A DNA stretch of 64,000 bases from contig NZ_JADWYX010000033.1 in assembly GCF_016786355.1 (NCBI RefSeq), positions 1 through 64,000 on the forward strand, given 5' to 3'. The notes under the pieces are model-generated. The model was not told where the DNA came from and ran no database searches. It saw only the letters and a program-made list of their open reading frames with translations. The stretch's first letter is position 1; each line of letters starts with the position of its first letter. Shown here one piece after another: positions 43,463-47,375 of the stretch. The position numbers were made by a program, and so were the translations under genes. This DNA is from Frankia sp. AgB1.9. GTDB taxonomy: Bacteria; Actinomycetota; Actinomycetes; Frankiales; Frankiaceae.

Positions 43463-43996
43463 ATGGAGATAAGGCCGCAGGCGGTCGCCATTCCCAAGGA
43501 AACCGACCAGCTGGAGCAGGGGAAATACGGCCCCATCTTCCCGAAGACGCCGGCATGCTACGGGTTCACCATCATCGCCAGGGTAAAGCCCGGCCGGGCC
43601 GAGGCGATACGAGCGCACGGCCGCACCCTCGCCGGCGCACTCGCCGGAAATCCTCATCTTCTCGCGCCGCTGAAGCTCCACTACCTACGCTGGGTGCTCT
43701 TCGACGACGACACGCGTTTCATGTACCAGGGAATCTTCGACACCGACTTCGACAAGTACACCGAGGACGCGGTCGCGCTTTTCAGCAGGGCAGGAGTGGA
43801 TACGACCTTCGAGAACCTCGAAGGATTCCCCGAGGACTGGCGGACGAACCCCGAGGCCTTCGTTCGTTTCGTGCGCGCACACCACTGCCCGAGCTTCATC
43901 GAGTACGGCGAGTACCCGTACGTGACGGCCGACGAGATCAAGAAGGCGCTGCGGGTCAAGAGCGCGCTGTCCGAGATGCTCGACCAGATGCAGTGA
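43463..43996 (+). CDS. Unknown protein of DyP operon (177 aa)
   Basis: 177 residues from the ATG at 43463, with AGAGGAG a few bases before. YGFTIIARVKPGRAEAIRAHGRTLAGAL and LHYLRWVLFDDDTRFMYQGIFDTDFDKYTEDAVALF suggest one alpha+beta ferredoxin-like domain, the fold DyP peroxidases contain twice. No family recognised. First gene of a three-gene unit ending in the DyP-type peroxidase (43 bp to the next gene), so a partner or precursor role is plausible but inferred. Confidence 0.8.
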   Translation: MEIRPQAVAIPKETDQLEQGKYGPIFPKTPACYGFTIIARVKPGRAEAIRAHGRTLAGALAGNPHLLAPLKLHYLRWVLFDDDTRFMYQGIFDTDFDKYTEDAVALFSRAGVDTTFENLEGFPEDWRTNPEAFVRFVRAHHCPSFIEYGEYPYVTADEIKKALRVKSALSEMLDQMQ

Positions 43997-44039
43997 TCCT
44001 CTCCACTGTCGCCTCAGGACAGGCCTATCGGAGACCGCG

Positions 44040-45053
44040 ATGAGCGAACCGCGCACGGCCCGCACCTACAACCAGAACCATGCCCGCCGCGCCTACGCTC
44101 CAGGCCGGCGACGGGTCAGTATCTACGTGTCGTGGAGCTACCCGGCCGAGGCGGGCCGGAACCCAACCGAACTCGACAACCGTTTTTCCACGATGACCGA
44201 GGTCCGGCGGGTGGCGTGGCCGGCCTACGAGGAACCGCGGTGGTCGGACCCATTCCAGTTCCAGCAGGGCATCGCGGGGGCGCTGGAGCTGTTCTTCTGG
44301 GCCTGGGTGCCCTTCCAGGAATATGTGAAGGAGGTCACCGGGTATGCCGTGCCGCTGTATCAGCGGGTCGATCACGCGGGATTCCGGACCGTGCTGGACG
44401 AGCGCGTGCTGGCGGACACCGACACCCTTTTCGTGTTCGGGCTGGACCACACGGTCACCGGGCAGGAGGCCGAGCAGGGGGAGATCGCGGCGCTGCGACA
44501 TTTCCTGAGCCGCGAGGACGCCTGCCTGATCCTCGGACCCCACCACGACGTCGGCGCCTCCGACGACCTCGCCGTGCGGGACATCGAGTACCGCCATCAC
44601 GGGGATCTCCTGGTTCCCCGCCAACAGCGGTTCGCCGGCTACGTCCGAAGCCTGATGCGAGGTCTCGGGGTGCCCGTCGAGAACCGCTACGGGCTTCGCC
44701 CCGCCGTCCGCGACGGCAAGCAGCCCGCCCCGTTGTCCACGGCCCGGGACCTCGACCCCAAGGGATGGCTGGACGGCGTGAGCCACTTCAATTTCCACCA
44801 GCATCTGCCGCACTACGCCGTCACGACCGACCAGCCGGGCGTCGTCCACGTCCTGGCCAGCCAGCCGATCGACACGAGGCAGCCGCATCCGTTCATCGAG
44901 GCCGGTGCGACCGAGTTCAACACGTTCCTGTGGATGCCACCGGCCGGCGATCGGGCCGGGGATGTGCTGCTGGCCGATTCCACAGTCTTCAGCTCGTTGT
45001 TCGGCGGCGACGAAAGCCTACGTCGCTTCTGGCGCAACCTCGTCTCCGCGTAA
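44040..45053 (+). CDS. Unknown protein of DyP operon (337 aa)
   Basis: 337 residues starting MSEPRTARTYNQNHARRAYAPG. Features: RVSIYVSWSYPAEAGRNPTELDNRF, a possible short amphipathic helix GALELFFWAWVPFQEYVKEV, and DTLFVFGLDHTV, ALRHFLSREDACLILGPHHDVGASDDLAVRDIEYRHHGD, which alternates strands and helices and carries several His and Asp residues that could bind metal or substrate. HFNFHQHLPHY near residue 250 adds more histidines. I do not recognise the family. Lies 43 bp after and 20 bp before the other two operon genes. Confidence 0.82.
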   Translation: MSEPRTARTYNQNHARRAYAPGRRRVSIYVSWSYPAEAGRNPTELDNRFSTMTEVRRVAWPAYEEPRWSDPFQFQQGIAGALELFFWAWVPFQEYVKEVTGYAVPLYQRVDHAGFRTVLDERVLADTDTLFVFGLDHTVTGQEAEQGEIAALRHFLSREDACLILGPHHDVGASDDLAVRDIEYRHHGDLLVPRQQRFAGYVRSLMRGLGVPVENRYGLRPAVRDGKQPAPLSTARDLDPKGWLDGVSHFNFHQHLPHYAVTTDQPGVVHVLASQPIDTRQPHPFIEAGATEFNTFLWMPPAGDRAGDVLLADSTVFSSLFGGDESLRRFWRNLVSA

Positions 45054-45073
45054 CGGCGAGAGGAGCGGAGACG

Positions 45074-46408
45074 ATGAGCGGAAAAACGCCGATCGCACTG
45101 CAACTCGACGACATTCAACGCGCGGTCCTCAGCCCCCGGCCGACCCCCTACGCGGCGACCTACCTCGCTTTCCGGGTCGACGACCCGGCGCACGGCCGGG
45201 AACTCATGCGCCGCGCGAGCGCGGTGGTCACCTCGGCCGCCGAGCCGGTCAGCCCCCTCGGGAGTACCTGGGTCAGCGTCGCGCTGACCTGCCACGGGCT
45301 GCGGGCGCTCGGCGTTCCGGAACCCGCGCTGGAAACCTTTGCCTGGGAGTTCCGCCAGGGCATGGCCGCCCGGGCCAAGGCGCTCGGCGACGTCGGGGAG
45401 AGCGGCCCCGAGAACTGGGATGCCCCGCTGGGCACGTCCGCCGTCCATGTCGTGCTCCTGGCGGTCGCGCCGGACGCCACCCAGCTGGAGGCGGCCATCG
45501 ACCGCGCCCGGCCCGCCTACGAACAACTGGCCGGCGTCACCGCGATCTGGCGACAGGACTGTCACACCCTGCCCACCGAGGTGGAGCATTTCGGCTATCG
45601 CGACGGCATCAGCCAGCCCGGCATCGAGGGCAGCGGCATCGCCGGGTCGAACCCACTGCAGGAGCCGTCGAAAGCCGGCGAGTTCGTGCTCGGCTATCCC
45701 GACGAGCTCGGCGGCGTCCAGTCCCCGCAGCCAGCCGAGCTCGGACACAACGGCAGCTATGTCGCCATCCGCAAACTTCACCAACGGGTCGGCGCGTTCC
45801 GCCGCTACCTGCGCGACAACGCCACCAGCCCCGACGACGAGGAGCTCCTGGCCGCGAAGATCATGGGCCGGTGGCGAAGCGGCGCTCCTCTCGCGCTCAG
45901 CCCGCACCACGACGACCCCGCCCTCGGCGCCGACCCGGACCGCCGCAACGCCTTCCTTTACCAGCGCGATGATCCCGCGGGATTCACCACTCCCGGCGGC
46001 TGCCACATCCGCCGGGCAAATCCTCGCGACGCCACGGTGGCCGGCGAGCCACGGCTGCACCGCATGATCAGGCGCGGCGGTGTCTACGGCCCACCGCTAC
46101 CGGACGGAGTCCTCGAGGACGACGGGACCGACCGCGGCCTGATGTTCACGTTCGTCGGCGCCCATCTGGGGCGCCAGTTCGAGTTCGTCCAGACCCAGTG
46201 GATGAACGACGGTGTCTTCTTCGGCGCGAACGACGCCCGTGACCCCGTCACCGGAAACCACGACGGCACCGGCACCGGCACGATCCCCCGACGACCAGTG
46301 CGCCGACGCCTGTCCGGGCTGCCTCGGTTCGTCGTGACCCGCGGCGGCGAGTACTGCTTCCTACCAGGCCTGAACGCACTGCGCTGGCTGGGCGACCTGA
46401 CCGACTGA
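45074..46408 (+). CDS. DyP-type heme peroxidase
   Basis: 444 residues. Start at 45074 with GAGAGGAG/GGAG before it. The DyP signature GxxDG is in FGYRDGISQPGIEG (near residue 176), and the proximal heme His is the candidate in GCHIRRANPRD (near 318). Length fits the longer C/D-type DyPs. It oxidises substrates with hydrogen peroxide; no signal peptide or encapsulin-targeting tail is seen, so it is probably cytosolic. Third gene of the operon with two unfamiliar partners. Confidence 0.92.
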   Translation: MSGKTPIALQLDDIQRAVLSPRPTPYAATYLAFRVDDPAHGRELMRRASAVVTSAAEPVSPLGSTWVSVALTCHGLRALGVPEPALETFAWEFRQGMAARAKALGDVGESGPENWDAPLGTSAVHVVLLAVAPDATQLEAAIDRARPAYEQLAGVTAIWRQDCHTLPTEVEHFGYRDGISQPGIEGSGIAGSNPLQEPSKAGEFVLGYPDELGGVQSPQPAELGHNGSYVAIRKLHQRVGAFRRYLRDNATSPDDEELLAAKIMGRWRSGAPLALSPHHDDPALGADPDRRNAFLYQRDDPAGFTTPGGCHIRRANPRDATVAGEPRLHRMIRRGGVYGPPLPDGVLEDDGTDRGLMFTFVGAHLGRQFEFVQTQWMNDGVFFGANDARDPVTGNHDGTGTGTIPRRPVRRRLSGLPRFVVTRGGEYCFLPGLNALRWLGDLTD

Positions 46409-46466
46409 CAGCGCGGCACGCGGCCCGCCACTCCGCGACCGCCGCGCCACCCGGGTGGGGAGCCTC

Positions 46467-47375
46467 ATGGACGCCCTGCATCTGCTCTTCAATGCCATCA
46501 CAGTGGTCTTCATCGCTGCGACCATGTTCGCCGCCGGTCTCGGGGCCACCGTGCCGGCGCTGCGCGCCATCGTCACCGACATTCCGCTGCTGCTACTGGC
46601 CCTGCTCGCCAACATGATCATCGTTCCGCTGCTCGGCTGGGGCATCGGTGAGCTGCTCGGCCTCCCAGAGGCGCCGTTCATCGCGCTCGTCCTGGTCAGC
46701 TCCTCCCCGGGCGGACCGTTCGGGGCGAAACTCGCCATGGTCCAGGCCGGTGACGTCCCCGCGGGCGCGGCAACCCAGGTGCTGCTCGCCACGGCCGGCA
46801 GCCTCACCTTCGCGCCGACCGTCAACATCATCCTCACGACCGCCGACCTCGGCACCGGCGTCTCCCTCGACGTCCGCACGCTGGTCCGGACGGTCGCTCT
46901 CCTACAGCTCGTCCCGTTCGCGGTCGGCCTGCTACTGCGCCAGTACGCGACCTCCACGGCGCGGTCCTGGCACCCCACGGCCACCATGATCTCGAACGTG
47001 ACGTTTCTGCTCGTCCTGGTCGGCATGCTGGTCGGCAACTGGCAGGACGTCGTCGCGCTGCTCGGCTCACGCACCCTGCTCGCCGGGTTCGTCCTCTCGG
47101 CCGCCGCGTTCGCCGCCGGCACGCTGCTGGCCACTGGTCCGCCCGCGCGCCGAACCACCCTCGGAGGCGTCACCGCCGTTCGCAACGCAGGGCCGGCCCT
47201 GGCCGCGATCGGCCTCGCCTTCCACAACGAACCCGCCATACTCGGCGGGCTCGCCGCCGTCCTGCTCAGCGGCCTCGCCGCGGCCCTACCAATCGCCGCC
47301 GTGCTTCACGGCCGGCGAACCACCGCCACCGCCGCCAACCGGCACTCCCACGACGGTCCCCAGCCCGGTGCGTGA
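46467..47375 (+). CDS. BASS/SBF-type membrane transporter
   Basis: 302 residues from the ATG at 46467 with GGGGAG five bases before (a GTG at 46455 is the alternative). Eight to nine hydrophobic segments; VSSSPGGPFGAKLAMVQAGDVPAG resembles the substrate-binding crossover of the bile-acid:sodium symporter family, and AVRNAGPALAAIGLAFHNEP the second one. Transports an organic anion with sodium, by family. Its end overlaps the convergent HxlR gene by 90 bp. Confidence 0.82.
   Translation: MDALHLLFNAITVVFIAATMFAAGLGATVPALRAIVTDIPLLLLALLANMIIVPLLGWGIGELLGLPEAPFIALVLVSSSPGGPFGAKLAMVQAGDVPAGAATQVLLATAGSLTFAPTVNIILTTADLGTGVSLDVRTLVRTVALLQLVPFAVGLLLRQYATSTARSWHPTATMISNVTFLLVLVGMLVGNWQDVVALLGSRTLLAGFVLSAAAFAAGTLLATGPPARRTTLGGVTAVRNAGPALAAIGLAFHNEPAILGGLAAVLLSGLAAALPIAAVLHGRRTTATAANRHSHDGPQPGA

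Follow-up and report, generated by a model that had tools for sequence, protein, structure and literature searches.

At positions 43463-46408 (+ strand) of the window, the 64,000-nucleotide stretch of Frankia sp. AgB1.9 DNA that was analysed, a DyP-type haem peroxidase gene is preceded by two partner genes. We call the 177-residue protein g1, the 337-residue protein g2 and the DyP g3. Comparison across genomes shows g1 to behave as an obligate genetic partner, adjacent or fused, of one DyP subclass, and g2 as an obligate companion of g1 and DyP in what is called below the g2 version. In our main reading, to which we give a probability of about 0.6, these genes encode a modular intracellular oxidation system on a distinct class V (C/D) DyP subclass, in which g1 would be the partner subunit and the third component would vary. 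The DyP is of a known kind. The partner families are new to Pfam and NCBIfam, and no description of them was found in the open-access literature (subscription journals not covered), where no described DyP partner protein and no P450-DyP fusion was found either. The features of the locus are the following.

g1, 43463..43996, + strand: open reading frame with an ATG start, 177 residues; DyP partner protein with one predicted ferredoxin-like domain
g2, 44040..45053, + strand: open reading frame with an ATG start, 337 residues; predicted GATase/ThuA/IFT52-like fold
g3, 45074..46408, + strand: open reading frame with an ATG start, 444 residues; DyP-type haem peroxidase (TIGR01413, Pfam DyP_N)
SBF (bile acid:sodium symporter family) transporter, 46455..47375, + strand: Pfam SBF, E 9e-15; directly downstream of the DyP gene

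The gaps between the three reading frames are 43 bp (g1-g2) and 20 bp (g2-DyP), so that the gene order and spacing given in the original prediction agree with the coordinates. The SBF transporter scores under the cut-offs of every named NCBIfam transporter.

The window DyP reaches 112.4 bits against the NCBIfam superfamily model TIGR01413 (cut-off 100.5). In Pfam, only DyP_N was found to match it; the C-terminal model PF20628 gave no match at E-values up to 1. PF20628 matches five other places in the Frankia genome, which are other DyP-type proteins, and matches weakly the fused g1-DyP relatives described below. The closest solved relative of the window DyP is that of Deinococcus radiodurans (DrDyP, 8RE2/8RE3; phmmer, E 1e-115 with 8re3). 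The GXXDG motif is present as GYRDG (G174-Y-R-D177-G), and the distal Asp D177, the proximal His H311 and the distal Arg R333 align with D189, H324 and R348, named as haem-site residues of DrDyP (PMC10820274). These three columns are at least 97% conserved across the 80 loci presented below. At the N-terminus, neither a signal peptide, a Tat motif nor a long hydrophobic stretch was found, and the first 35 residues hold no twin arginine. Because a Tat motif and a long hydrophobic segment are both lacking, the protein is probably cytoplasmic. Assignment as an EfeB deferrochelatase, with EfeB-type iron uptake, was rejected from a TIGR01412 score of 22.9 bits against a cut-off of 428 and from the lack of a twin arginine; assignment as an encapsulin cargo was rejected because the encapsulin model PF04454 has no match in the assembly (278 contigs). 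The view, held at the outset, that DyPs normally stand alone or with encapsulins does not apply to the DyP subclass considered here, in which g1 is the rule.

A g2 scan of 84,980 species genomes yielded 106 confirmed relatives, the best 80 of which were kept. Both g1 and DyP lie inside the fetched locus in 80/80 of these best relatives, an association far beyond chance. The trio is co-directional at 78 of the 80 loci (order g1-g2-DyP in 69, g1-DyP-g2 in 9); the exceptions are L075, where g1 is inverted, and L079, where g2 is 2.6 kb away. Hosts belong to at least seven phyla (Actinomycetota, Myxococcota, Pseudomonadota, Acidobacteriota, Planctomycetota, Gemmatimonadota and Verrucomicrobiota), and the trio also occurs on Nostoc plasmids. 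Identity to the window proteins ranges from 58 to 88% for g2 and from 49 to 95% for g1; at two myxobacterial loci (L063, L067), g1 is divergent (about 50% identity) and g2 and DyP are normal. The adjacency anticipated for related genomes was therefore found, in distant genomes as well as in related ones. In an even draw of 297 genomes of the host's class, the 11 genomes with full-length g1 are exactly those with full-length g2, a count uncorrected for kinship, and one further genome of this sample has a weak 29-residue g2 match. Within the host's own family, g2 was found in 7 of 35 genomes. At another locus of that family (L113, G318:C110:8886-9893), a TAG codon lies within g2, which marks a pseudogene or a sequencing error. 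Since the distribution is sparse but wide, the trio may have spread by horizontal transfer as a unit.

Searches with g1 gave a broader picture. In the same class sample, the g1 profile detected seven distant relatives besides the 11, and a DyP adjoins all seven. Some of these relatives consist of one domain; others have two, connected through a hydrophobic linker that probably spans the membrane. A search with a broader g1 alignment found g1-like domains in 23 of 349 Pseudomonadota and in 47 of 193 genomes of the Myxococcus phylum. All Pseudomonadota matches and the 30 best Myxococcus-phylum matches were fetched, the weaker ones of that phylum being left out, and in every fetched case a DyP is adjacent or within the same protein (the second-domain locus L185 is the same gene as L175). 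Over the two fully inspected samples, a DyP stands beside or is fused to a g1-like domain in 41/41 genomes (18 of the class, 23 Pseudomonadota). At five Pseudomonadota loci (L193, L194, L195, L199, L201), a single polypeptide of about 1,400-1,535 residues has the arrangement P450-g1-g1-DyP; Pfam confirmed P450 and Dyp_perox_C in the two fusions tested. Such domain fusion is strong evidence of a functional linkage of g1 and DyP. Directly upstream of the fusion genes L193:6602-10837 and L199:5681-10288, a cyclase-like domain with TPR repeats is encoded, and at L204 a cyclase/AAA/TPR gene adjoins the cluster.

The reverse test, starting from DyP, found g1 in 44 of the 54 nearest fetched loci (class and Pseudomonadota). 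The DyPs of the other ten are among the lowest-scoring ones, all at or below 227 bits. In a 52-row DyP tree, the g1-linked DyPs form one side of a branch with support 99/93, recovered in 200/200 bootstrap trees. Taken together, the reverse test and the tree indicate that g1 marks a DyP subclass and not DyPs generally. The g2-linked DyPs occur in two separate tree groups, at least two changes being forced by the starred branches, while the g1 proteins linked to g2 cluster together (SH-aLRT 100), separate from every other g1. L079 and L081 pair a second-type g2 with a first-type DyP. One group of g2-linked g1 proteins beside two DyP groups is most simply explained by an exchange of DyP during which g1 and g2 remained a pair. 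Thus, g1 and g2 appear to belong to each other, and not just each to DyP. The fusions, and the retention of g1 and g2 together beside two DyP lineages, are evidence that goes beyond the original prediction.

That prediction had taken g1 and g2 for unrecognised partners, and this stands, as neither was matched to a described family in Pfam or NCBIfam. No match was found for either among PDB sequences. About 25 relatives of g1 gave no credible Pfam match (chance level), and relatives of g2 likewise remained at chance level (DUF4350, E 0.09, in 2 of 24). A phage origin of g2 was rejected, phage records searched with g2 having given no match.

The g1 superfamily has four invariant residues, H73, D93, Y99 and D102, in the broader alignment across the family, and a conserved C-terminal helix that ends in LDQMQ. 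An AlphaFold2 model built from a shallow alignment (pLDDT 81) matches the ABM/TcmI/rhamnose-mutarotase barrels, the best being 1tuw (Z 7.7, rmsd 3.2, 99 aligned), and all top rows of the structure search belong to the ABM-like dimeric alpha+beta-barrel superfamily. MhuD (3hx9, Z 5.7) shows fold similarity only. From this model, g1 is predicted to be a ferredoxin-like domain, as had been proposed, and expected to pair into a dimeric alpha+beta barrel. Judging by topology, with no distances computed, the four invariant residues would sit close to one end of the sheet. The superfamily of ABM/TcmI-type barrels also contains the DyP barrel itself (PMC4835899).

For g2, the initial description as His/Asp-rich proved apt, in that the family holds the invariant clusters D136-H137, H168-H169-D170, H186-H187-x-D189, H253-x-H255-x-x-H258 and H283. 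The corresponding motifs PHHD, HHxD, LHPHLP and HPF are kept even in relatives at 38-44% identity, which suggests a metal or acid-base centre. An AlphaFold2 model from a shallow alignment (pLDDT 79, pTM 0.83; residues 35-78 poor) has a GATase-like fold, matching 1t0b with a Foldseek E of 8e-5 and IFT52 (5fms_A) with Z 15.3 and rmsd 3.0 over 201 residues. The protein holds one Cys, which is not conserved, and so lacks the catalytic Cys of class I GATase and ThuA-like enzymes. The distant relatives at 38-44% identity occur without DyP (L211, L218, L212, L210), so that the chemistry of g2 need not depend on a peroxidase. One of them (L211:5992-6978, on a plasmid of Rhizobium sp. T1473) is flanked by genes for the MNIO bufferin maturase BufB and an HvfC-like protein; DUF2282 is encoded upstream and DoxX downstream. 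DyP-linked g2 forms carry an N-terminal TYNQNH segment.

Neighbouring genes were counted with the antisense shadow ORFs of the trio excluded. Of the other 30 g1-DyP loci, 11 have a P450 (fused at five of these) and a different 10 have a catalase-family gene. At the 80 g2 loci, no catalase-family gene was found (0/80) and a distant P450 match was found once (1/80). Because P450 and catalase-family genes are mutually exclusive and the latter are absent from g2 loci, g2 seems to occupy the neighbourhood slot that is taken elsewhere by a P450 or a catalase-like protein. In the actinobacterial loci the SBF transporter is a conserved companion, a homologue with 59-83% identity lying directly downstream of DyP at about 35 of the 80 g2 loci. 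A pyridine-nucleotide flavoprotein is near 18 of the 80, between DyP and g2 in the case of L077; in the three examples checked, its active-site region is without the usual redox Cys pair. Other g1-DyP loci have lipid-type neighbours (patatin, thioesterase, 3-hydroxyacyl-CoA dehydrogenase, enoyl-CoA hydratase and animal haem peroxidase) as well as GMC oxidoreductase and Mo oxidoreductase, the lipid-type neighbours being limited to the P450 and catalase versions and absent from the g2 version. At L118 and L119, from two actinobacterial genera, g1-DyP is accompanied both by enoyl-CoA hydratase and by a Mo oxidoreductase resembling sulfite oxidase. The I-helix acid is missing in 8 of the 11 DyP-linked P450s as compared to 7 of 29 P450s of the Frankia genome, as scored with regular expressions on these small numbers; the 'AAGDT' matches of L193 and L194 do not fall at the I-helix position and were left out of the count for the acid-alcohol pair. 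The 9.8 Mb Frankia genome has 83 P450-family matches.

In the modular oxidation system that we favour, g1 domains would pair into an alpha+beta barrel and dock on DyP as a partner subunit, where they may gate or present substrate at the DyP haem. The peroxidase would have little activity at cell pH until docking switches it on. An oxidised intermediate would then be handed to the component that defines each version. Elsewhere this would be a P450 or a catalase-family haem protein; here it would be g2, whose His/Asp centre, probably a metal site, may act on the intermediate from the C-terminal edge of the GATase-like sheet. The SBF transporter could move the substrate or the product, and in other lineages the flavoprotein without the redox Cys pair could supply or remove electrons. 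The likeliest substrate class would be a hydrophobic, possibly fatty-acyl, hydroperoxide. This is the weakest step of the model: it draws on which genes adjoin the P450 and catalase versions, and on the missing I-helix acid, a small-sample hint. Fusion and adjacency indicate functional linkage and not reaction order. The roles suggested originally for the partners, namely delivering substrate, forming a complex or making up a new oxidative pathway, are thus supported, and which of them applies we infer as above. A more far-reaching version, tentative and somewhat doubtful to us, would see DyP and a barrel of paired g1 domains work with a third enzyme that can be swapped (P450, catalase-like haem protein or His-rich g2). 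The three would make up a bacterial multi-enzyme machine, hitherto unrecognised, for the channelling of hydroperoxides, analogous to oxylipin-type cascades, in which g1 would activate this DyP subclass at cell pH.

Other explanations were weighed against the modular system. The closeness of the g1 fold to the ABM/IsdG/MhuD barrels, the invariance of H73 across the g1 family and the position of hemA two genes upstream in Sinorhizobium (L215) would all suit a haem-handling factor, an IsdG/MhuD-type barrel relative that loads or removes the DyP haem, with g2 assisting haem or iron turnover. We consider this unlikely, because DrDyP made in E. coli in the absence of its partner still carries haem (PMC10820274), because tandem g1 domains fused between P450 and DyP look more like a structural or catalytic component, and because iron-transport neighbours do not recur.

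A general peroxide-defence operon, in which DyP would scavenge H2O2 or organic peroxides and the partners merely stabilise it, with no dedicated substrate or pathway, strikes us as equally improbable. The tested DyP, that of Deinococcus, is inactive at physiological pH (PMC10820274), the third components are specific and mutually exclusive, and the system is sparsely spread (11/297 genomes) in genomes that hold other DyPs; these points weigh more with us than the catalase-family genes at 10 of the 30 related loci and the reported rise of DR_A0145 (DrDyP) and of its catalase-like neighbour DR_A0146 after UVC/vacuum exposure (PMC5731708). Finally, the g2 relative next to BufB in Rhizobium raises the idea that g2 assists enzymes of oxidative peptide tailoring, acting in peptide or protein modification. 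This appears very unlikely, since no precursor-like small ORF recurs beside the g1-g2-DyP loci (ORFs of at least 110 residues surveyed) and the bufferin-linked form lacks the N-terminal segment seen in DyP-linked g2.

What DyPs do in the cell, and on which substrates, is described as unclear (PMC10820274). Recombinant DyPs are assayed as single proteins. If one DyP subclass has an obligate partner, earlier assays missed a component, and adding the product of the gene just upstream would be a direct test of the puzzling inactivity of the Deinococcus DyP. With the P450-g1-g1-DyP fusions, nature would offer biocatalysis an oxidative enzyme with two haems, which is unusual, and g2 would stand for a new family with a His/Asp centre on a GATase-like fold.

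Among known systems, the Deinococcus one invites comparison. There, a 243-residue hypothetical protein is followed by the DyP (DR_A0145) and a catalase family protein, and the 243-residue protein is a g1 relative that is not annotated as such (E 2e-38). Like the window DyP, DrDyP is in the tree group of g1-linked DyPs. However, Met replaces the last Gly of GXXDG in DrDyP whereas the window DyP has GYRDG, and its operon has the catalase-family gene and no g2 whereas the window operon has g2. DrDyP was studied without its g1; it was inactive at pH 7.5, with a six-coordinate low-spin haem, and its authors speculate that activity is governed by interactions with other proteins (PMC10820274).

The predicted g1 fold resembles the ABM/TcmI/IsdG dimeric alpha+beta barrels. 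Unlike these, g1 has no Pfam match, carries an N-terminal extension and a long C-terminal helix, has its own set of invariant residues and is always tied to a DyP. Similarly, the predicted g2 fold is like that of ThuA-like proteins, of the IFT52 N-terminal domain and of class I GATases, but g2 differs from ThuA and the class I GATases by the absence of a conserved nucleophilic Cys, by its invariant His/Asp clusters and by having no Pfam match beyond chance. In the DtpA-GlxA pair of Streptomyces (PMC4736821), a DyP likewise works with a second oxidative enzyme, there a copper radical oxidase; the locus L120, in which a g1 tandem and DyP adjoin a P450 and a galactose-oxidase-like gene, is reminiscent of this pair. 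DtpA is a Tat-exported DyP, whereas the window DyP shows no export signal and its partners differ. Encapsulin-DyP systems are alike in that the DyP has a dedicated partner, but the partners described here are not capsid proteins and the genome has no encapsulin gene.
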